Source: a virus
Strand: one strand, 5' to 3'
Length of the DNA stretch: 64,000 nt
Virus record (IMG/VR): IMGVR_UViG_3300036715_000875
Span: 1-64,000 of that record
The position numbers and the translations under genes were made by a program. The notes below the pieces were generated by a model. That model was given only the letters and a program-made list of their open reading frames with translations, was not told the DNA's origin and made no database searches. Of this stretch, positions 12,957 to 25,634 are shown in pieces. The first letter of the stretch is position 1. Each line of letters starts with the position of its first letter.

Positions 12957-13775
12957 ATGGCAAATACAGCTAAAACTGCAGAGTTTTTTATCGGTGACTT
13001 GGACATTCGTGTAAGTACTGATCTAACAAAAGCCGGCGAACTTGGGCCAGAGCATTCTATTGGTCTTTTGCAAGATGCAAAAGTTACAATGAATACTAAC
13101 CAAGTTAAACTTCAATCAGGTTTTCCTCAGCGTACGTATGCTTCTGTTGTAACTTCTCGTGAGTTAACAGTAGCAGGTTCGTTCAATGAGTATTCAATCT
13201 CTAACCTTGCACTTATGTATGGTGATAATGACGCTCTTGCAAAAGCTATTTTAGCTTCTCCAAAGTCTTCTGATCTTACAGCAGTAGCCGCTACAGCAAG
13301 TTCAACTTTGACAGTAACTCTTGGAACAGGCTTTACAGCTGGTGATACTGTTTATGTCTACTCTAAAGCTAACTCTTCAGATGTATTTGTAACCAGTGTT
13401 GTTTCTCTTGCGGTAAATGTTATTACTATTGCTGACCCACTTCCACGCGGATTTGCTATTGGTGATATGGTTTCTAAAGTTATTTCTGTTGAACTTGGTT
13501 CAAGTGATAACACTAAAGAGCTTACAATCCAAGTTGTTGGTACAATGCCTCTTGATGGTACTCCATTCGTCTATGACATTTGGAAAGGTGTTATTTCTGG
13601 TTCTGCAGAAGTTGCAGCTTCAACTCAAAACTTTGGTGCACTTGCGTTCCAAATTGACCCACTACAGCCAACAGCTTCTGAAATTGCTGCAGGTAAGTAT
13701 GGTATTACTGCTGTTAAGAAAGCAGTTGTCGCTCAGTATGCTCAAGGTCGTTTGACTAAGAATATCGTTGCGTAA
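12957..13775 (+). CDS. Major tail (tube) protein
   Basis: The 272-residue product lies before the frameshifted tail chaperones and the tape measure, the standard place of the tube protein. It is beta-rich. The middle (about residues 105-175, STLTVTLGTGFTAGDTVYVY and following) looks like an inserted small beta domain exposed on the tube. AAAAAGGA precedes the ATG. CGT is the main Arg codon, pointing to high expression. A UUCG hairpin follows the stop. Confidence 0.8.
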   Translation: MANTAKTAEFFIGDLDIRVSTDLTKAGELGPEHSIGLLQDAKVTMNTNQVKLQSGFPQRTYASVVTSRELTVAGSFNEYSISNLALMYGDNDALAKAILASPKSSDLTAVAATASSTLTVTLGTGFTAGDTVYVYSKANSSDVFVTSVVSLAVNVITIADPLPRGFAIGDMVSKVISVELGSSDNTKELTIQVVGTMPLDGTPFVYDIWKGVISGSAEVAASTQNFGALAFQIDPLQPTASEIAAGKYGITAVKKAVVAQYAQGRLTKNIVA

Positions 13776-13782
13776 CAATGAC

Positions 13783-13798
13783 GCTAGCTTCGGCTAGC
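13783..13798 (+). other. CUUCGG hairpin after the major tail gene
   Basis: GCTAGC-TTCG-GCTAGC is a perfect 6-bp stem with the exceptionally stable UUCG loop, starting seven bases after the stop codon of the tail protein gene. A mildly T-rich stretch follows, but no continuous T-run. It may block 3' exonucleases and so help keep the tail-tube message abundant, or attenuate transcription into the chaperone genes. Confidence 0.5.
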
Positions 13799-13822
13799 AT
13801 CCAATTGTTTGATAGTTTATGT

Positions 13823-13888
13823 TACTGCTCGGGGGATTGTGGCCCGAACGTTTTTCGAGCAGTATCCTAAGTTATTAAAGGGCCACAA
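13823..13888 (+). promoter_or_regulatory. Candidate RNA pseudoknot covering the chaperone RBS
   Basis: Two perfect 9-bp helices interleave. Stem 1 pairs 13823-13831 (TACTGCTCG) with 13856-13864 (CGAGCAGTA). Stem 2 pairs 13837-13845 (TTGTGGCCC) with 13880-13888 (GGGCCACAA). The order 1-2-1-2 is an H-type pseudoknot with loops of 5, 10 and 15 bases. Stem 2 contains the AAAGGG ribosome binding site and ends at the base before the ATG at 13889, so it would hide the site. T4 gene 32 has a regulatory leader pseudoknot; here the regulated gene would be the tail assembly chaperone. Confidence 0.6.
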
Positions 13889-14251
13889 ATGGAAGAATTA
13901 TATTTACACTTTGAGTTTTATGAGAATATCGCACCTGTTGATGTACTTATAACTTGGGGTATTCATAAAGAACTGAGCAATTACCTACTAGCGGATGAAA
14001 ATCTATTTAACCTATTCACTAATGACACTATCTCAGATATGGTTATAAACATATGCCTAGCTGAACGTGATATGTATGGTAAGGCTAGTAAGCCATTTGA
14101 TTATATAAACCTATTAACTACTAATAGTATGATCGCTAACCTAGAGTTAGTATTTAACTACTTTGAGAATTTTTTTTTCCAGAATCAGCTGCGCCTAGCG
14201 AAGACAACGGAGAAGTTACTGAGCGTGAGATCTCAGAATATAGCTCAATAA
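13889..14251 (+). CDS. Tail assembly chaperone, short form (G-like)
   Basis: The 120-residue acidic helical product is coded between the tube and tape measure genes, the place of lambda G and its equivalents. These bind the tape measure and bring in tube subunits. A run of nine T residues (14170-14178) near codon 95 is the frameshift site that makes the longer form. The in-frame end after the slip site (QNQLRLAKTTEKLL and on) is basic. AAAGGG is the ribosome binding site and is part of a predicted pseudoknot. Confidence 0.7.
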   Translation: MEELYLHFEFYENIAPVDVLITWGIHKELSNYLLADENLFNLFTNDTISDMVINICLAERDMYGKASKPFDYINLLTTNSMIANLELVFNYFENFFFQNQLRLAKTTEKLLSVRSQNIAQ

Positions 14252-14526
14252 ACCTACTATTAGAGGCTAACTCAGATAGTCTATTTCTATGGCTCTATGA
14301 TTATAGAACCGAAGACTATATGAAAGCTTCATTTATCCTCTCTTTAAACCAACTGAAAAAAGCCGCTTCCTTCAAATTGGAGATGACCAACAGCGCGCTT
14401 TATGATAAGTTCTTAATAATAGCAAAAGCATTTGGTAATGAAGTTAAAACGAACGATAGCAGAGCAGCCAGTAGGCTTCCTCCAGCGAGTTTTGAAGGTC
14501 TAGCCACATTTTTAGGGAGTATGTAA
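13889..14526 (+). CDS. Tail assembly chaperone, -1 frameshift form (GT-like)
   Basis: A -1 shift on T-TTT-TTC (14173-14179) joins the first 97 residues to a frame that is open from 14179 to the stop at 14524-14526, giving a 212-residue protein. The extension begins PESAAPSEDNGEVTEREISE (acidic linker) and ends with a helical domain (KASFILSLNQLKKAASFKLE). The extension has no start codon with a ribosome binding site of its own near the slip site. Its stop overlaps the tape measure start (TAATG). The pattern is the conserved one for siphovirus tail chaperones. Confidence 0.8.
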
Positions 14527-17500
14527 TGGAGTTTAATGCCAGAGACCTAATAGGTCAAATTATGGGAATAAAGAATGCCCAAGACGCTACCCAAGTTAGA
14601 GCAAGACTTAATAGTCTTAAAGGCAAAGTTACAGATACTCAGTATAATCAATTAACTAACGCATTAGAGTCAAAAACTAAAAATATGCCAAGTAACCCTA
14701 TAGGTAGACAGAGTAATGTAGACTTGAATAGCCTACAATGGGGAACTCCAAATATTGTTCAGCAAGCTAATGAGCTAAAGAGAAGTGCAGCTCTAGAGCA
14801 ATTAGCTCTAGATAAGCAAGTAGCTATGGATAATCTTATAGCTAAGACTACAGATCATGGCAGATCAATAACTCCAAATAAACCAAATAACTCTAGATAT
14901 AAGCCACTTAATCCAGCTGTAGCACCATATAGTACCTTAACTAAAGATACAAGTATATCTTGGGAAGTTAATGAGTTTTTAACTCGTTACTTTACTCAAA
15001 AGTCAGGGCTATCTGCAGATACTCAGTGGAAAGCGTTCGTTAGAGGTAGTAGTATGCCAAAGGGCATGCAGTACAATAGTAACTTAGAGCAACAGGTTCT
15101 TCAAGAGGTTAAAGCTTTAGAAGACCGCCTAGGTGGCTCAAATCAGGCAAAACAACACTTTAGTGGTATGTCATACCAGTCTACTGTGAGAGAAATCGAA
15201 GGTGTTAAAGTAGCTCTTAATACAGCTTTTTCTAATGATAAGAAGACTGCACTACTCTTCGCGCTAGATAAAGGCAATGAGGATACACTATCTAAGTCTT
15301 TAGCTCAGATGTTTAGCTTATATAAAGGCTTAGAAAAGATTGAAGTGGCTACTAAGTCAGGGGTTAAGACTTTTACACGAGATAGCAATATTATCTCTGG
15401 ACCTACTACTGATAATCTATTACAAGGTAAAGCTAAACTTGCGCAGAATGCTAATAGACTTAAGAAAGATCATATAGGTACAACAAACTATTATAAGCCA
15501 ACTCAAGCTGCAAAGACTACGTATGAGAATACTCAAGCAGAACTTCAGGCTATAGCACTTAAGCAACTTGAAGATCTATCTAAAACTGCAGTAGCTACTA
15601 TGCCAGTGGGAGTACTAGAAAAGTTTTTAGCTCATACCAAAGTAAAAGATTTAAAGAAGTATGGGTCATACTTTGGAGACCAGTTTAGTAAGTTAGCTCA
15701 GTATTCACTAAGTGATAATAATACTTTAAGTCAGACTTTATCCCCTGAGCAGGTTAAAAACATAAGACTAGCAACTGCTAGAAATCGTGCAGAAGAGTAT
15801 GCTGTACATGCTAGAGCAGCTCAGAAGCAAACTGTTAACCTAGGTAGTGAACTAGGGGTAAGTAAAAAGGCTATTATCACTGAGGCGAGTAAAAACCTTG
15901 GGCGAGATACTACAAAGCATCTAGAAGCACTACACGCTATTAACTCATTTTTTACAGAGTCTAAGCATGATGCTATAGCCTATGCTAGACAAACTGGAAG
16001 TAAAGAAACAAATCCTCAAGCCCTCTTTGATAAAAAGTATCCTGAGCGTATTGGGTTCTTAGACCTAATGAAAAGTTCAAGGCCAGAGGTTTATAAGTCT
16101 GCGGTATCAATGCTAATGGCAAATAAAAATAATAGAACTTGGTTAGAGTCGAGAGGCTTATTAGCTGAGAATACAGCTAACCCAATTCTTAACCTTAAGG
16201 GACTTGTACAAGAGAAGTTTACTAGAGTATTAGCTAGATCAATTTCTGATAATCCAAATTCTATAGATGGTAGAATGGACCCAGAGCTATTAAACTTATT
16301 ATCAAGTAAAGCACTAGGCCATGCTAATAAGATATTTGAGAGTGAACGTAATGTAGCTTCTCCAGTTGGAGCACTAGCTGTAAAGAAATTTGAGGGCCGT
16401 TTAATAGATAACCTTAATGATATGGTAGAAGGCCAGAAATTTGCTAAGGTGTATAACTCTGCAGGGTTCACACAAGTTGTTAATAAAACTCTAATGGGTG
16501 ATATTGACCTAGGTGATACAGTAGCCAATAGGGCTGAGCAGCAAGAAAAACTTCAGCAAGAGAGTTCTAGAATTTTTAGTGACATGATTAAAAATCATGA
16601 GGGTAAAGTTAAAGTTCAAGCTCTAGAGCAAATGAAGCAACAAGCTCATGAGCAGGCTATGTTTAACCTAGGCCTCGACTCTGACGGTATGCAGATTGAA
16701 ACCTTAAGTCTTAAGGAAAAATTCTTTGGTGCTCAATCTCAAGTTAATATTGGAAAACTGCTTAAAGCTAAGAATCTAGATAAAGTTAACTCAAGTAAAT
16801 TATCAGAGTTTGATCAACTACAGATAAAGATGGCCAAAGGTACAATGACTATTGAAGACCATAAGAATCTTATGGATACTGCAGCTGCACTTGGTATAGG
16901 TAATTCTAGTAATTTTGGCTCTATTGGTGGACTTCAGAAGATAATTAAAGGGCTTAGAGAAGGCCAGTATGAGTTTAACGCTTTAACTGTTGAGGGTAAG
17001 GCTGATCTTAGTTCTCCTAGAATTCATATTAGTAAAGAACTTCGTAAGAGTATTCTAGAAGGCTTTTCTTCTGACCCTAAGATTAATAAGCAACAACTAG
17101 CGGAGTATAATAAACTTGGATTATATAATGAAGTAGATGGAAGACTTGAAGTGTCTAAGATTATGAAGACAGCTTCTGAGTCAACTCTTATGATGGTTAA
17201 AGGGTCTCCAGAGGATAAAAAGACTAGACAGTACTTAACTGAGTATTTTGCTGGGTTAGATGTAGATCAACTTACAGTTGGAGAAAAGAAAAGAGCTGTA
17301 GCTATCCATACAGCATTAGCTAGTGGTGCAGCTGTAACTCAAAAGATGGTAGATATTAGAAAAAATGCTCAAGTAAAAGCTGACCCTCATAATATGATTG
17401 AAAATATGTATAATACTCTTAGCTTAGACCCTAAGAACGCGCAGTATACAACACTAAAAGCCTCACAACATAGTATTCTTAGAAAGAAGTCTGAGCTTAC

Positions 17501-20500
17501 CGATCAAGCGTTACAAAATATGCTTAAGTATGATTCAGTTAAGCAATTTTATAATAACCCAGAAGTAGCCGGTAAAGTTGATGGGTTCTACGCAAGTGTA
17601 CCAGTAGATGGAGCAGAGACTAACAAACTAATATCACGCTTAGGTGAGTTTGGAACTTTAGAGACAAGTAAGTTGAGAGACTTTAGAGGTATGAAGCTAA
17701 ATGATAAACTTAACCTAGTTGGTAAGGCTTTACATATAAAGTACCTAGATAGTCTAGGCACAGATGCTAATGGTAATAAGGTACATACAGCTAGATCAAT
17801 AGCATACTCTTCAGCTATGAATAAACTATCAGGAGATATAGCGTCTCTAACTAGTGGTCAAGTAGGCCGTACAGCAAAGCTTGATATAGTTAGTAAGCTA
17901 CGAGGCACCCCAGTAGCAAGCTTAGTATCCCAAAAGTACTTAGAGAATGAGATGGCTAATACAATAGCGTTTGCTCATTTAAACACTGGAGGAGACCGTA
18001 AGTTCCAGTTAGGGGATATAGTTGATGACTTATCTAAGGCAAGACTAAAAGCAGAAGCCCTAACTAACATAGAGCGTGACTTTGGTATACATAGAGAGGG
18101 TCTTGGAGCAGTTCAGTACCCATTTAAAGCATTAGCTGGACAAGGTACAACTGAGTTGAGAGCTTCTAGACTTAGTATGTTAGACTCACTTAGTAATGCA
18201 AGCCCTCTGGGTGGGCAGTTCTATGATAGTATAGACTTAGACCCAGGCGCATTAGGCTATGTAGCTAAAAGCACTAGGGAGGTAGCTATTAATAATCATA
18301 AGAGAAACCTAGCTACCTCAGCCCTTATGAAGGGTAGACAAGTAGAACTACCTTCTGAAGAACCTAGGCTAAGACCATTCATAAGAGCAGCTAGAGAAGG
18401 TAAAGTTAAGTTCTCAGCAACTGATCTACTAGAACTAGCTAAGCATGTACCATTCTTACGCTTAGCTACTGGAGGAAAGATTCCAGGTAAAGGCCATGTT
18501 GATGAAGTTCCTGCGCTATTAATGAAAGGTGAAATGGTAGTTGATAGAGCTACTACAGAGAGTTTAGGGATTCATACAAATAGCGATTATAAAAGATTTA
18601 AGCAAGCAATAGCTAATGGTAAAGTCAAACACTTTGCAGAGGGTGGTATGACAGATGAGGAGAAGCAAAAAATTCAAGATGCACTACTATCTCAAGGCAT
18701 TAGCCTAGAGTCAGCAGCTAAGATTCTAGAAAGTAGTGTTGGTAAGGCTCCTGGGGCTCGCCTAGGAGAGTCAGTACTAAGTCTAGGAGATGAACCTGAG
18801 TATAACCATACTCCTGCGGCAGTTGCTGTAGATAATGGAGTTAAGCCAAAAGCTCCTAGTGCATTGAAAGCTATTAATACTGATACCATAGCTAAAAAGA
18901 CTGAGAGTGCGAATGCTTTTAGGGAACTAACTAACCAGCTTAAACGAGGAACAATACTTGACGCTGCAACAATGCTTAGCCCTAAGAATCTTCTAGAACT
19001 AGAACAAGCTCATGGTTCAGGCTTTGTAAGTAAGCTGAAACCTTACCAAGAGTTAGTAGCTAATAGTGGTAGCTTATCTAAGGTAGACTCAATTGAGTCT
19101 ATATTATCAGTTAATAACTCTTCATCTTTAGGGGCAGATCAAGCGGCAATACTTAAGAAGATTAGTAGTAGTAAAGCGCAGACTCTTAATATAAAAGAGA
19201 GAACTGACTCAGCTAATGCAGACTTTGTTAGTAACATGAATAATACGGCTATGAATGAGTTAGCTGAAATGTGGAAAGACCCTCGTAAAGCTAAGAACAT
19301 GATGAGTAGAGTTCTAGAGGCTGAGACAACAGCTACTAATCCTAAGACAGTTAAAAATGTCTCTGATATGAAAGTAAAGATGACTGAGCTAATGCTAGGT
19401 TCATCTTATGGTGAAGTAACAGACGCTTTAAGAAAAGGTGATACTAGCACACTATCACCTTTAGGTAGAGCCGCTCTTGATGGACTATCATCTAACTCAC
19501 AGCAGTTACAAGACTTTAAGAAAGTAGCTACTCCAGATATAGCTGAAGGTGTGCATAAGTATTCTGGAGCCAAAGATGATGGGCTAACAAACGCTATGAA
19601 GCTTGTTAATAATAACTTAACTGAGGTGTCTAAGATTCTTAGAACTGAGGCTAAGCCAATAACTAATAGAGCTGAGTTTAACCAGTTTATAGGCGAGGTT
19701 CTTAAGAATAATGCTGATGGAGGTTTCACTGCAGCTAATGTTGATGGTGGAGCTAAAGGGGCAGCAAAAGCTAAAGATATGTTTAATACTCTAAAAGGTG
19801 GTATTGATAAGAATCAAGACTTTGACTCTTACCACTCTATGGGTGAAATGGGTAGACAAGCAGAGTCTGTACAGCGAATCAAAGAGTCATCACAAATGCG
19901 ATGGGCGAACTTTAAAGACTTAATGGTACAAAATACAGCCTTCGCAGCTTCATATGCAGTACTTGGTGGGGCTACTAGTTCAATAGTTGGAGCTACTCAG
20001 TTTATAGTTAATCTTGATGAGAAGATGAAAAACTTACAAGCTATTACAGGGTCCACTACTCCTGAAGTAGCTAAGATGGCAAGTACTATTAAAGAGGTAT
20101 CAACTCAAACTAAGTTCTCAGCTGGAGAGATTGCTGATGCGGCAACAGTTCTAGGGCAAGCTGGGTTTAGTGCGCAAGATATTTCAGAGTCTCTTGGTGG
20201 GGTTGTTAAGCTAGCAACAGCTACAGGGTCCAGCCTAGATGAGGCTACACAAACATTAACATCAGCCCTAACAATTTGGGATGCTCCTATGAAGGCCTCA
20301 GAGAGCTATGCTAATGAGTTTACAGCAGCAATCAATAAGTCTAAGCTTGATATTAACTCTCTAGGTATGGCATTACAGTATTCAGGTAGTATTGCTGCTG
20401 AAGGTGGTATACCTGTAGAAGACCTTGTAACTGTTACATCTCTAATGAAAGATGCGGGGGTTAAGTCAGCATCAACTTCTGGGACAGGCCAGCGATTAGT

Positions 20501-23500
20501 CTATAGTGATATTTTAGCCCCGTCGTCTAAGTTCACTAAGTCTCTAGCTCAAGTAGGTATAACTAAGAAACAAATGGGTGAAAAGTTTGATGAAGAAGGC
20601 GTACTTGGTGTCTTGAAGCTGATGCGTGATGAAGGGTATGGCTTTGGGCAAGCAACCTCTGGTATGGAAGTTCGTGAGAAGTCCGCCTACTTAACAGTAG
20701 CGGGGCAACTTGATAGAGCTAGTAACTTTAGATCAAGTATTATGGGGACTAATGCAGCTGGAGACGCTAATAAGGTTCAAATGTCTTCTCTAGCTAATCA
20801 AACTAAAAATATGTTTAACTCTTGGGGTATTGCACTAGATACTATGGCTGGAGATAAGTTATCCTCTGTTGGAAGATTCTTTGAAGCTATTACATATTCT
20901 CCAAATAAGACTAATAACTTACAAGTTGGAGCAGGAGTAGACTACTATAAAGAGACCCAAGATGGGATTAATGGAGGAAACTCTGGAGTAGGCGGAGCAA
21001 TTATTGGGGGACTAGCTATAGGTGGAGCTGGATATGCCTTACATAAGTTTGCTAAGAATAACCCAGGTGGAGGCCTAGGTAAGATAGGGAGTAAACTCTA
21101 CTCTCCTCCTATAGAAGGTGGAGGGTTTAAAACCGCTTCAGGTGGGTTCTTTGGTGGGGCAGTAGATAAATTTAAAGGCTTATCAGTAGGGGCAAAAGCA
21201 GGTGGAGCCTTAGGTATATTAGAGACTGGGTATAACTTAGTTCAAGCTAGTCAGTCTAAAACACCAGTTAGAACATTTATTCAGGATATGATGCCAACCT
21301 TAATAGGCATAGCTACTGCGGCTATAGCAGCCCCTCTTCTAGGCTTAGGAGCAGTTGCAGCTGGGGGTGTAGGAATCGGTGCAAGTTTATTAGGTGGGTC
21401 AGCTCTTAAAGGTAGTACTGATAAGGCTGTTGATAAAGTAGGTAATTTCTTTGGGACAGACTGGGGCAAGCCAACAGGTAACGAAATTCTACAAGACGCT
21501 GGAGCTCGGTTAGCGGGAAGTAAGTCTACTCTTAGTGACTTATATAAATACGAGAACGCTGTAGGTAAGGCAAAAAATAACCCTTTAAGAGATGGTAAAG
21601 ACGCTACAGAGGCAGATAAGGCTATTACTAGGTCTAATATAACTAAGCAGGGGTTACAATTTAATGAGTCATTTAAGGCTGAAATAGACCAGCTAGAGAA
21701 AGCAACTGGCCAAGTAACAGACTTCTCTAATGCAGGAAGTGCTGATGAGTTACAGAGCCAGCTTAAAAGCTTTAGAAAAAGCTTTAAAGAGAATATAGTA
21801 GTCAAGTCATTTAAACCTATGATGGAAGCTTTAGAAAAGACTTCAGCAACACCTATAGAAGACCTTACAGGTAAAACTGTAGGAGATGCTACTAAAGCTG
21901 CAGAGAGTAAGATAGGCTCTACACTTGCTAACTTAGCAACAGTAGCACCTGAGTTGCTTCTAGCTCAAGGTAAAGAACTAGATAAGGTAACTAGAAAGTA
22001 TTTTGCTGGAGCTCTTAAACAGGATACTAAGCTACTCCAAGATAAGCTAGCTGGAGAAGTCTCTAGTGGTGAGATAACTAAAACTGAGAGTGGTGCTAAG
22101 TATATTAAGGAAAAAGCAAAGCTAACGAATGAAAATACTAAGCGTGAAAAAGCAGTACTTGATAGTAGACGATCTGAAGCATTGACAGGGTATGTTAATC
22201 TTAACTCTTCAGATGAGGTAATGAAGTATGTAGCTGACTTGAAAGGAAACACTGCAAAAGGGGCTATTAGAACAAAAGCTGAAGTAGCAGATAATAAGTT
22301 CACACAAGCTGAGTTTGCTAGTATTGAAAAAGGTTCAGCTACTCAGTACCAAAGACATAGAGAAGAAGAGACTGGGATAGATAAGATTAAAGCTCAGGTT
22401 GTTGAGTTAGTGAATCAGACAGATGAGATTAACCAAGCGTTTAAAAGTTTCTACAAAGATACTATATCTCAAGTTGGCCAGCAAGCAGTAGACCTAGGAA
22501 GAAAGTTTGGTAATACCATGCTTAAGGAAGCTTCAAACCTTGGTAATAGCAATTGGGGTGATACAGCTGGGCTACAACATACTCTAGGGAGTATGGCAGT
22601 AAATGGCCTAAATGAAAAGTATATGAAAACTAGCCCAACAGACCTTGAGTCTAAGAGTGTTATTAGCCTACTTAATAAAAATATTAAGTTTAATACTCTT
22701 GGAGCTTTACAAGCCGGAGGAAATCAAGCTGGAGCTAAAGAGTTTAATGCTATGCTAGCAGCTGAGCCAATTGCAGCAGCTATTGCAGATATGCCTTCTA
22801 CTCTTGAAGGTTTAATTAATAAGCATGGACAAGATCCATTTATGCTTAAGCAGTTTAATGCTAGAAAAGATGCCTTAGAGAATAATGGTATTAATAGAAA
22901 TGTTGATATTGATGCTCTTAAAGGACTAAGCTTCGAAAATATTCTGGCTATGTCAACTAAGCAGAAAGAATCTATAGTTGACCCGCTAGCTAAAAAGAAG
23001 ATGGAGACTAGTAAGAATTTTGAAATTTATCAGCTTGATGCTAAATATGCCTCAATCAAAGAAATGCAAATTGGTGGTAAGAATATTTCTGAAAATCAGT
23101 CTGAAAAAGGCTATGCTCTAAAAGAGAATCATAGGCAGTATGAGTTAGGAATAGCAGCATTCAATAGAAGTCAAGAGTTCCAAAAGACTCAGTTGATGAC
23201 AAACTATTCTAGAAATATAAGGGACTTTAGCGCTAGGATAGACTTCCAGCGCCAAGAAATGGGAATAGGTTTTGCTCAGTCACAAGCAGCAGCTCAAAGA
23301 CAATATGACTTCCAACAGACTATGATAAGGATGCAAGCTGGATGGGCAAAAGCTGATGCGTTAAAAGGGTCAGGAGATAGTAAAGATGATGCAGGTAAGA
23401 AGAGAGACTATGCTATCCAAGACCTAAACCTAAATACTAAGTATAAGACTGAGGATGTTAATAAAGACTTCTCTAGAACAGTAGCGCAGCTGAATACAAG

Positions 23501-25634
23501 CCTTACTAGACAGATAGATGGCATTGATAGAGCTATGCAGTTCTCTAGAGATATGTTTAACCGTAGTATGGATAAGCCAGTTAATCTTACCCTTAATCCA
23601 GCAGCCTTTTTAAAAGTTGCGGATAACTTGAATGATAATACTCTAGCTCTAGATGCCCATAAAGCAGAGCTAGGTGCTAATACTACAGCTATCCAGCAAT
23701 TAGTAGGTCTTCAGCAAACTAAAGAATCTTTAGTAAAAGACGCTTATAAGTATGCTTATAAAAGTGTAGGTGGCGCAGTAACTAATGAAGATGGGACCAC
23801 AAGTGCTAAGTTTACTGAGATGTATGATAAATATATGCAAAATAATAGTGGGCAGTTATTAGATACTGTATTGAATCAGGCAATGAATAAAACTTTCGCT
23901 GGTGCAGGCTTTGATGCAACTAAAGCTCTAACAGACTCTAACTATATTGCTCAGTCAGTTGCGAATCCTGGAGAATCAACTACCCCTGCAGGTATTATGC
24001 AAGGTAGCGGATACTCAGTAGAAGACTTTGTTAATGCCCTATTTAAGGATGGTAGTGGTGAAATCCACGTAACTACATCTCAAGGGGTAGTACTTGAAGC
24101 TCAAGGTAACTTGGCTGGAGCCTTATTTGATTTAGAGACTCAGATGGTAAGCTATCAGAATCAAATATCTGAGGTAGGTATAGCTTTCTCTCAGAATATG
24201 GAGGACGCTAGACTATCGCTTAAGTATTCTTTAGATGATATAGCTACCGCTTATCAAAGAGGTCTTGATGCTATCAATACAGCCTATGCTAGAGATATTG
24301 AACAAATTAGTGATTCTTTACAGCGCGCTATGGAAGCTATCTCTACTAACCTGGATAGACAGGCAGAGTCAGCTGCTTTACAACATCAGTTCCAAATGCA
24401 AGAGGCTGCTATACAGTTCCAGCAAGCTTTAGAAGCTCTATCTAGACAAGAGGCATTTAATAAAGCACAAATGGAGCAAGGGCTTAAAGATGCTCTTACT
24501 GACTTAGCATCAACAGCAGAGTTTAAACTTGGGGAATCGGCTATAAATAATGACCAGAATATAATTAGTATTAACGATCAGTTCGGCAGGCTTATAGAAA
24601 AGCTTGACTTACAAAAAGAAGAAAACATTAGAGCTCTTGAGCAACAGTATAATGATACTCTATCTAAAGTTATAATAGATGCCCAAATAATGCTAGAGAT
24701 GTTTAATAGATCATTAAAGGCTGCATTAACTGAGCAACTACCAGATCTAGCTTATGCAGTTAAGTCTATTGAAGGAGGGATAAATAAAGCTGCAACTGAA
24801 ATGGACTGGAAGTTTGCAGGGGCAATTAAAGCTATCTCTGAAGGCTGGGATAAGGCATTCAAAGATGATGCAACATCTAAGGCTATTAGAGAACTTGGTG
24901 GGGCTACTCTTAGATCAATAGTTGACTCTATGGGTAAAGACCAAGATACAACTATTAAGGATGTCTGGGCTAAGTATGATGAGCCTATTAAGAACGCCTT
25001 TAAAGCCTCATATGACTCATTAGCAACTAATGTACAAACAGCGGCTACTGAGTCAGGAAAGAAAATTGTAGAAGCGGCAGCTGTAGTTCAGCAAAACTCA
25101 GTAGCACTAGACCAAGCATTAACTAAATTAACCACTTTTGGTGAAGCTAGAAGCTCTGACTTAACAAATATGACAACAACGCTAGCTAGTTTAGCAAGCA
25201 CAACTATAAATGCTATGTCTACAATGGCTACACAAATAGCGGCTGCAAGAGATTCTATAGCTCGTGCAGCATCAGCTGGAACAGGATATAACACTGGAGG
25301 GGCAATACCAGGGTATGGTGGAGGAGACTCAGTCCCAGCTATGCTAGAACCTGGTGAGTATGTACTACGTAAAGAGGCTGTAAGGTCTTTAGGAATAGAC
25401 TATGTGGCTGGACTAAATAATTCAATAGTCGGGGCTAAGCTTGGTGATGGATTGTCATCAATATCTATCAAGAATGTAACAAGTTTACCAACGCAAGCCA
25501 CAGAGGCTAAAAGTGGTGATAGTAATATCTCAGTAGGTATTTCAGTTCATCCAGAGATGACTATTAGGTCTATCCAGGATAATATAGAAAAGATTGCTGA
25601 TGGGGTTCATAAAGTATTTCAGGAGTATATGTAA
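14526..25634 (+). CDS. Tape measure protein
   Basis: This 3702-residue protein fixes tail length and is ejected with the DNA. About residues 1798-2110 match the TP901-type tape-measure core (FKDLMVQNTAFAASYAVLGG, then TSTGTGQRL-like and VREKSAYLTVAG segments). Hydrophobic Gly/Ala stretches near residues 2152-2172 and 2258-2292 could span membrane during DNA entry. Long coiled-coil stretches (for example near 2880-3000 and 3210-3330) fill the rest. A module TGG-x-IPG-x-G followed by D-x-VPA and GE-x-V occurs twice, near residues 1315 and 3589; it is usually at the C-terminal end. At 0.15 nm per residue the tail would be about 550 nm. Confidence 0.93.
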   Translation: MEFNARDLIGQIMGIKNAQDATQVRARLNSLKGKVTDTQYNQLTNALESKTKNMPSNPIGRQSNVDLNSLQWGTPNIVQQANELKRSAALEQLALDKQVAMDNLIAKTTDHGRSITPNKPNNSRYKPLNPAVAPYSTLTKDTSISWEVNEFLTRYFTQKSGLSADTQWKAFVRGSSMPKGMQYNSNLEQQVLQEVKALEDRLGGSNQAKQHFSGMSYQSTVREIEGVKVALNTAFSNDKKTALLFALDKGNEDTLSKSLAQMFSLYKGLEKIEVATKSGVKTFTRDSNIISGPTTDNLLQGKAKLAQNANRLKKDHIGTTNYYKPTQAAKTTYENTQAELQAIALKQLEDLSKTAVATMPVGVLEKFLAHTKVKDLKKYGSYFGDQFSKLAQYSLSDNNTLSQTLSPEQVKNIRLATARNRAEEYAVHARAAQKQTVNLGSELGVSKKAIITEASKNLGRDTTKHLEALHAINSFFTESKHDAIAYARQTGSKETNPQALFDKKYPERIGFLDLMKSSRPEVYKSAVSMLMANKNNRTWLESRGLLAENTANPILNLKGLVQEKFTRVLARSISDNPNSIDGRMDPELLNLLSSKALGHANKIFESERNVASPVGALAVKKFEGRLIDNLNDMVEGQKFAKVYNSAGFTQVVNKTLMGDIDLGDTVANRAEQQEKLQQESSRIFSDMIKNHEGKVKVQALEQMKQQAHEQAMFNLGLDSDGMQIETLSLKEKFFGAQSQVNIGKLLKAKNLDKVNSSKLSEFDQLQIKMAKGTMTIEDHKNLMDTAAALGIGNSSNFGSIGGLQKIIKGLREGQYEFNALTVEGKADLSSPRIHISKELRKSILEGFSSDPKINKQQLAEYNKLGLYNEVDGRLEVSKIMKTASESTLMMVKGSPEDKKTRQYLTEYFAGLDVDQLTVGEKKRAVAIHTALASGAAVTQKMVDIRKNAQVKADPHNMIENMYNTLSLDPKNAQYTTLKASQHSILRKKSELTDQALQNMLKYDSVKQFYNNPEVAGKVDGFYASVPVDGAETNKLISRLGEFGTLETSKLRDFRGMKLNDKLNLVGKALHIKYLDSLGTDANGNKVHTARSIAYSSAMNKLSGDIASLTSGQVGRTAKLDIVSKLRGTPVASLVSQKYLENEMANTIAFAHLNTGGDRKFQLGDIVDDLSKARLKAEALTNIERDFGIHREGLGAVQYPFKALAGQGTTELRASRLSMLDSLSNASPLGGQFYDSIDLDPGALGYVAKSTREVAINNHKRNLATSALMKGRQVELPSEEPRLRPFIRAAREGKVKFSATDLLELAKHVPFLRLATGGKIPGKGHVDEVPALLMKGEMVVDRATTESLGIHTNSDYKRFKQAIANGKVKHFAEGGMTDEEKQKIQDALLSQGISLESAAKILESSVGKAPGARLGESVLSLGDEPEYNHTPAAVAVDNGVKPKAPSALKAINTDTIAKKTESANAFRELTNQLKRGTILDAATMLSPKNLLELEQAHGSGFVSKLKPYQELVANSGSLSKVDSIESILSVNNSSSLGADQAAILKKISSSKAQTLNIKERTDSANADFVSNMNNTAMNELAEMWKDPRKAKNMMSRVLEAETTATNPKTVKNVSDMKVKMTELMLGSSYGEVTDALRKGDTSTLSPLGRAALDGLSSNSQQLQDFKKVATPDIAEGVHKYSGAKDDGLTNAMKLVNNNLTEVSKILRTEAKPITNRAEFNQFIGEVLKNNADGGFTAANVDGGAKGAAKAKDMFNTLKGGIDKNQDFDSYHSMGEMGRQAESVQRIKESSQMRWANFKDLMVQNTAFAASYAVLGGATSSIVGATQFIVNLDEKMKNLQAITGSTTPEVAKMASTIKEVSTQTKFSAGEIADAATVLGQAGFSAQDISESLGGVVKLATATGSSLDEATQTLTSALTIWDAPMKASESYANEFTAAINKSKLDINSLGMALQYSGSIAAEGGIPVEDLVTVTSLMKDAGVKSASTSGTGQRLVYSDILAPSSKFTKSLAQVGITKKQMGEKFDEEGVLGVLKLMRDEGYGFGQATSGMEVREKSAYLTVAGQLDRASNFRSSIMGTNAAGDANKVQMSSLANQTKNMFNSWGIALDTMAGDKLSSVGRFFEAITYSPNKTNNLQVGAGVDYYKETQDGINGGNSGVGGAIIGGLAIGGAGYALHKFAKNNPGGGLGKIGSKLYSPPIEGGGFKTASGGFFGGAVDKFKGLSVGAKAGGALGILETGYNLVQASQSKTPVRTFIQDMMPTLIGIATAAIAAPLLGLGAVAAGGVGIGASLLGGSALKGSTDKAVDKVGNFFGTDWGKPTGNEILQDAGARLAGSKSTLSDLYKYENAVGKAKNNPLRDGKDATEADKAITRSNITKQGLQFNESFKAEIDQLEKATGQVTDFSNAGSADELQSQLKSFRKSFKENIVVKSFKPMMEALEKTSATPIEDLTGKTVGDATKAAESKIGSTLANLATVAPELLLAQGKELDKVTRKYFAGALKQDTKLLQDKLAGEVSSGEITKTESGAKYIKEKAKLTNENTKREKAVLDSRRSEALTGYVNLNSSDEVMKYVADLKGNTAKGAIRTKAEVADNKFTQAEFASIEKGSATQYQRHREEETGIDKIKAQVVELVNQTDEINQAFKSFYKDTISQVGQQAVDLGRKFGNTMLKEASNLGNSNWGDTAGLQHTLGSMAVNGLNEKYMKTSPTDLESKSVISLLNKNIKFNTLGALQAGGNQAGAKEFNAMLAAEPIAAAIADMPSTLEGLINKHGQDPFMLKQFNARKDALENNGINRNVDIDALKGLSFENILAMSTKQKESIVDPLAKKKMETSKNFEIYQLDAKYASIKEMQIGGKNISENQSEKGYALKENHRQYELGIAAFNRSQEFQKTQLMTNYSRNIRDFSARIDFQRQEMGIGFAQSQAAAQRQYDFQQTMIRMQAGWAKADALKGSGDSKDDAGKKRDYAIQDLNLNTKYKTEDVNKDFSRTVAQLNTSLTRQIDGIDRAMQFSRDMFNRSMDKPVNLTLNPAAFLKVADNLNDNTLALDAHKAELGANTTAIQQLVGLQQTKESLVKDAYKYAYKSVGGAVTNEDGTTSAKFTEMYDKYMQNNSGQLLDTVLNQAMNKTFAGAGFDATKALTDSNYIAQSVANPGESTTPAGIMQGSGYSVEDFVNALFKDGSGEIHVTTSQGVVLEAQGNLAGALFDLETQMVSYQNQISEVGIAFSQNMEDARLSLKYSLDDIATAYQRGLDAINTAYARDIEQISDSLQRAMEAISTNLDRQAESAALQHQFQMQEAAIQFQQALEALSRQEAFNKAQMEQGLKDALTDLASTAEFKLGESAINNDQNIISINDQFGRLIEKLDLQKEENIRALEQQYNDTLSKVIIDAQIMLEMFNRSLKAALTEQLPDLAYAVKSIEGGINKAATEMDWKFAGAIKAISEGWDKAFKDDATSKAIRELGGATLRSIVDSMGKDQDTTIKDVWAKYDEPIKNAFKASYDSLATNVQTAATESGKKIVEAAAVVQQNSVALDQALTKLTTFGEARSSDLTNMTTTLASLASTTINAMSTMATQIAAARDSIARAASAGTGYNTGGAIPGYGGGDSVPAMLEPGEYVLRKEAVRSLGIDYVAGLNNSIVGAKLGDGLSSISIKNVTSLPTQATEAKSGDSNISVGISVHPEMTIRSIQDNIEKIADGVHKVFQEYM

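Follow-up and report, generated by a model that had tools for sequence, protein, structure and literature searches.

In the IncI-alpha plasmid ColIb-P9, the apical loop of the repZ stem-loop pairs beside the downstream ribosome-binding site (RBS), and another structure, together with upstream translation, decides whether this pairing forms; the resulting pseudoknot activates. The SAM-V, translational SAM-II and preQ1 riboswitches form H-type pseudoknots in which the final strand either involves or masks the Shine-Dalgarno (SD) sequence, and in SAM-V a bistable balance sets translation (PMC6061858). In phage T4, a pseudoknot of about 28 nucleotides (nt) located 5' of the SD and of UUAAA elements nucleates the binding of gp32 to the gene 32 leader, with the SD in a less structured part of the message (PMC535899).

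Here we describe an RNA element, found between the tail tube and tail assembly chaperone genes of mostly uncultivated tailed phages, that resembles each of these systems in part. Like repZ, it has an apical loop that pairs near a downstream RBS, but the repZ pseudoknot leaves the SD free, whereas the loop helix of the element includes SD bases in all 12 loci compared and should repress; neither a leader peptide gene nor an antisense RNA was identified. With the three riboswitches it shares an H-type pseudoknot whose last strand involves the SD. It differs from them in lying in a phage structural operon rather than at a metabolic gene, in an extra long outer helix that competes with the pseudoknot, and in the lack of a conserved unpaired aptamer core, since loops and linkers vary in sequence and length across the 12 loci. 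No relevant Rfam family matched the element, the sole entry being a sub-threshold miRNA model elsewhere. With family-model match and conserved unpaired ligand-binding nucleotides both absent, the small-molecule sensor raised in an earlier note on this DNA finds no support. The same note took the T4 gene 32 leader as its model. That leader is likewise a phage mRNA with a pseudoknot upstream of the RBS and translational control, but it proved a poor guide to the design, because its small pseudoknot, 5' of an unstructured SD with UUAAA or UAAA repeats, is a protein nucleation site that does not pair with the SD (PMC535899); in the element the SD is itself a helix strand.

The tube-chaperone junction in the window

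Tailed phages need many tube subunits and few chaperone copies from adjacent genes; lambda has about 192 major tail proteins per tail, and both of its chaperone forms are absent from the virion (PMC5009743). The window analyzed here is a 64,000-nt stretch of a 74,883-base virus record. Its genes run from terminase, portal and major capsid protein through small genes to tail tube, the RNA element, chaperone and tape measure, and all features of the window given below lie on the + strand. The tube gene (12957 to 13775, 272 amino acids [aa]), which precedes the chaperone and tape measure genes, matches PHROG 28493 (E value of 1.5e-20), a family without assigned function, and its product is weakly similar to that of the same-position gene of Achromobacter phage JWF and Caulobacter phage Seuss; we infer its identity as tail tube from gene order. 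In profile comparisons, the short form of the chaperone (13889 to 14251, 120 aa) matched the tape-measure chaperone annotated in Pseudoalteromonas phage KB12-38 (hhalign, 96.6%) and, weakly, that of Seuss (70%).

Near the 3' end of this gene, a slippery run of nine T residues (14170 to 14178) is followed by a −1 frame that is open to 14526 and would yield the long chaperone form; the tape measure gene (14526 to 25634, 3702 aa) starts in overlap with the stop codon of that frame. T-runs occur at the corresponding place in those relatives whose loci extend that far, and slippage is annotated in the corresponding Seuss gene. The arrangement fits that of lambda G/GT (PMC5009743). It was sensible to propose, as the earlier note did, that chaperone synthesis is controlled beside a −1 frameshift site. 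Frameshifting sets only the ratio of the two chaperone forms and leaves the step from tube to chaperone unexplained; the covarying RNA element lies exactly at that step.

Two perfect 9-bp helices in interleaved order had been reported upstream of the chaperone start, and both were recovered: TACTGCTCG (13823 to 13831) pairs with CGAGCAGTA (13856 to 13864), and the apical-loop strand TTGTGGCCC (13837 to 13845), an anti-SD, pairs with GGGCCACAA (13880 to 13888). The second helix, S2, covers the GGG of the SD AAAGGG (13877 to 13882, assigned by inspection), and its last base lies immediately 5' of the ATG at 13889. A scan for interleaved perfect 9+9 bp pairs with a span of up to 80 nt found exactly one on the + strand of the window, where 60 dinucleotide shuffles gave a mean of 0.05; the lone match on the − strand is the same element seen from the opposite strand.

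The first of these helices, stem 1 of the earlier note, exists but was drawn too short, being only the middle of a long hairpin that we call S1. Inward, GGGGA (13832 to 13836) pairs with TTTTT (13851 to 13855) through four G-U pairs and one A-U pair, so that the 3' arm of the inner and middle helices, TTTTT followed by CGAGCAGTA, runs from 13851 to 13864. Outward, an overlooked helix pairs TTTGATAGTTTATGT (13808 to 13822) with TCCTAAGTTATTAAA (13865 to 13879). This outer 3' arm is the 15-nt segment previously called loop 3, which would cross stem 1 in a pseudoknot state. Thirteen of the 15 outer positions are paired, a result equalled by 9 of 2,000 flank shuffles, and the minimum-energy nested fold in the window is the long hairpin, not the pseudoknot (z = −3.4). 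The gap between the tube stop codon and S1 holds a further hairpin, H1 (GACGCTAGC-ttcg-GCTAGCATC, one mismatch; 13780 to 13801).

Conservation and covariation of the helices

Relatives were gathered with tube, chaperone and capsid queries. This gave 12 non-redundant loci with a readable tube-chaperone junction (the window, L002, L003, L004, L005, L006, L007, L016, L023, L026, L046 and L047); L017, whose intergenic sequence is identical to that of L016, was counted once. Every one of the 12 has a hairpin with an apical loop complementary to the chaperone SD region, that is, two interleaved helices with the SD in the second strand of helix 2. Both stems are kept throughout, with compensatory changes; the refuting outcome named in the earlier note, relatives lacking both stems, did not occur, in favor of the pairing over the chaperone RBS.

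The loop-SD pairs fall into four classes, with cores GTGGCCC/GGGCCAC (the class of the window pair TTGTGGCCC/GGGCCACAA), TGGCTCC/GGAGCCA, GTCCGCC or GTCCGCT with GGTGGAC or GGCGGAC (GGYGGAC), and GCCCGTC/GACGGGC. Canonical pairs occupy 83 of the 84 core cells over the 12 loci, and at least two pair types occur at most core positions. When loops and SDs were reassigned by permutation, 1 of 200,000 assignments matched or outdid the pairing of each loop with its own SD (summed over loci, with the kinship between loci left in place), and in representatives of the four classes the own SD was paired at least as well as any other. Because related loci share classes, the loci effectively represent at least three independent events, counted as changes of class.

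These results bear on the view that an ordinary hairpin or terminator happens by chance to carry a loop complementary to the SD, which we consider very improbable. In favor of it, terminators occupy this slot in relatives (see below), and both loops and SDs are short stretches rich in C or G, with 0 to 141 of 5,000 loop shuffles at a single locus pairing equally well; the match in 12 of 12 loci with four pairing classes, however, and the covariation strongly disfavor it, and neither in the window nor in L026 did the + strand show an intrinsic terminator (a GC-rich stem followed by a T-run) at the element. These sequence comparisons give good support to pseudoknot pairing over the RBS.

S1 is kept in a similar manner. 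An automatic hairpin search around the loop gave 19 to 28 paired positions with no more than two mismatches in every locus. Pairing was seen at 268 of 279 positions across loci of widely diverged sequence, a figure that is in part by construction, as the hairpins had been picked for pairing. Pairwise comparison gave 762 double compensatory and 84 broken positions; here the stems, which are of unequal length and could not be brought into register by MAFFT, were aligned gap-free from the loop and from the foot, and the same selection applies. Nested folding of six loci returned the long hairpin every time (z from −3.4 to −6.5), under a model that cannot represent pseudoknots. The alignments thus establish the helices, with their conservation and covariation, and base pairing kept while the letters changed points to a built-in control of the amount of chaperone relative to tail tube. 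We regard the element as real and conserved, and RNA control of chaperone initiation as plausible.

The earlier note had further suggested that the chaperone itself binds the structure. In such autogenous repression, the chaperone (or the tube protein) would bind and stabilize the pseudoknot; the element is confined to the start of the chaperone gene, and phage leaders under autogenous control exist, T4 gene 32 among them (PMC535899). Against this, loop and stem sequences vary freely among the relatives and leave no conserved unpaired nucleotides for a common protein site, and we consider the explanation quite unlikely.

Several features are restricted to single loci or subsets. An A-G mismatch marks the border between the inner and outer halves of the hairpin in 4 of the 12 loci (L007, L016, L023 and L026). 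The apical loop CCCGTCCGCC of L016 and L046 is able to pair with SDs of both the GGCGGAC and the GGACGGG type and looks like an evolutionary bridge toward the class of L026. L026 itself (JALWRR010000076.1), a near relative in the tail region, lies on a 71.7-kb contig binned as the MAG of an Asgard archaeon; it is probably a mis-binned phage contig. At 5892 to 5909 of L002, an in-frame ATG within the 3' arm of the hairpin precedes the likely chaperone start by 18 nt, and the choice of start could depend on folding.

Two exclusive folds proposed to set chaperone initiation

The third loop of an H-type pseudoknot has to bridge stem 1, and a stem of 19 to 28 bp measures about 53 to 78 Å. In all loci the foot of S1 adjoins the SD, and the −1 to +6 nt that separate it from the S2 strand are too short a linker for that distance. 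Complete S1 and the loop-SD helix are therefore incompatible within one molecule, even though in most loci no more than a single base, at the foot, belongs to both. The single static H-type pseudoknot of the earlier note stands as far as its loop-SD pairing is concerned but not as one fixed form. Both helices can coexist only with the outer half of S1 open: its 3' arm then provides a sufficient crossing loop, and about 10 to 16 inner pairs are allowed together with S2, which is 6 to 11 bp long and starts from apical loops of 7 to 14 nt. The outer half is AU/GU-rich (70 to 100% of the last 10 positions), and the apical loop is GC-rich.

We propose, with a probability of roughly 0.6, that this cis-acting element sets ribosome initiation on the chaperone gene by means of two exclusive folds. 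State A would be the S1 hairpin of 19 to 28 bp, with its foot beside a mostly single-stranded SD and translation on. In state B, the inner half of S1 would be kept and the outer half opened, the freed outer-arm nucleotides forming the crossing loop that enables the apical loop to pair with the SD; this H-type pseudoknot would block 30S binding and turn translation off. That state B represses we infer from the coverage of the SD by S2 in 12 of 12 loci. We read both states as functional because compensation has kept outer helix and loop-SD helix alike; the balance between them would be regulated, and its purpose would be a low chaperone-to-tube ratio. If so, the tube-to-chaperone ratio would be set at initiation and the ratio of chaperone isoforms by frameshifting just downstream, and the element would offer a compact natural model for switching between competing helices that have no bases in common.

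Nested folding favored state A in every locus. By a nearest-neighbor estimate, made before any pseudoknot penalty, the energy difference between the two states ranged from −7.1 (L002) to +7.8 kcal/mol (window). The usual penalty is about 7 to 9 kcal/mol; with it, state B is predicted to be unfavorable except in the window, where the two states are about equal. S1 is fully transcribed before the SD, so state B requires something to open S1.

The geometric problem does not arise if the loop acts in trans. Full S1, the minimum-energy fold, would then always be formed, and its loop would pair with the SD on a second copy of the late mRNA, or act as a processed fragment, to give concentration-dependent repression. 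Known kissing antisense loops span a range that covers loops of 7 to 14 nt with 6 to 11 bp of complementarity. A high transcript concentration would be required, however, and the window region showed no excess of promoters, with none for a separate small RNA predicted above chance; GGGCCACAA with one mismatch was no commoner than chance elsewhere in the window. We regard pairing in trans as unlikely.

For the switch in cis, H1 is a weakly supported candidate, the likeliest one, for the trigger of the balance. In each of the 12 loci the tube stop codon is followed directly by a stable hairpin, which often has a TTCG loop; in 9 loci the 3' arm of this hairpin overlaps the outer 5' arm of S1 by 1 to 9 nt (9 nt in L007). 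Through this overlap H1 would tie folding to ribosomes completing the tube gene, which could open H1 and so favor the extended hairpin. The overlap is 0 or negative in the other 3 loci, the window included, which weakens the idea. We discounted melting of S1 by a terminating ribosome as the only cause, since the tube stop codon lies >20 nt upstream of S1 in the loci inspected by eye.

The same hairpins could instead mark an RNase III type processing site, where cleavage of S1 would remove the anti-SD loop and expose the SD, with H1 protecting the tube message at its 3' end. A double strand of 19 to 28 bp with variable sequence, and the stable hairpin right after the tube gene in all loci, would suit such a site; it offers no sequence determinant that could be checked, however, and processing alone does not require covariation between loop and SD. 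We hold this explanation to be rather improbable.

A simpler scheme dispenses with any signal. An energy-tuned throttle without an effector, in which the pseudoknot with partly opened S1 holds initiation at a fixed low level, would take the place of the H1 trigger. Tube protein is needed in far greater number than chaperone, as in lambda (PMC5009743), and in distant relatives the slot seems to be served by something simple, a terminator. The throttle leaves unexplained why covariation has kept a long outer helix that excludes the repressive pairing, and we find it somewhat doubtful, though conceivable. The fullest form of the two-state reading is put forward only tentatively: the loci may represent an undescribed family of phage RNA switches in which a hairpin and an SD-sequestering pseudoknot are exclusive by geometry rather than by shared bases, an AU-rich outer hairpin and a GC-rich loop-SD helix stand near energy balance, and translation of the tube gene through H1 tips that balance.

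Specificity and the same slot in cultivated phages

A single rule was used to score 191 gene starts from 13 sequences (the window and 12 loci). The top nine were all chaperone starts, with scores of 17.5 to 25.5, and the next start scored 11.5; these nine do not include chaperone genes that a contig end truncates or that have an in-frame ATG further upstream. At sequence level, the element is thus confined to the start of the chaperone gene. Scans of viral contigs for the anti-SD/SD pattern recovered the known members, and we read the remaining matches as chance. One of them, on an unrelated viral contig (L093:5750-5860), combines a 10-bp hairpin, the loop of which is TTGTCCGC, with a matching GCGGACAA ahead of an ATG; it has no tail genes nearby, is probably due to chance and was dropped. 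A literature search that covered a minority of subscription journals found no paper describing such an element at a tube-chaperone junction.

With the tube gene as DNA and protein query, annotated phages gave no matches at normal thresholds; the Seuss-like group was reached only with a portal or capsid query or at a relaxed threshold. In four of the five distant cultivated phages examined from this group, the tube-chaperone slot holds a terminator, annotated in Achromobacter phage JWF and Caulobacter phage Seuss and predicted in Xylophilus phage Lumi and Pseudoalteromonas phage KB12-38. The terminator scan gave no score for Seuss or for EAb13; in the latter, a hairpin overlapping T-rich sequence was seen by eye. 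The terminators of Seuss, JWF, Lumi and KB12-38 are like the element in position and gene order, but consist of a short GC-rich hairpin followed by T-rich sequence, act on transcription and show no anti-SD loop; presumably they lower chaperone expression. The comparison suggests that terminator and RNA element are two different RNA devices for one need.
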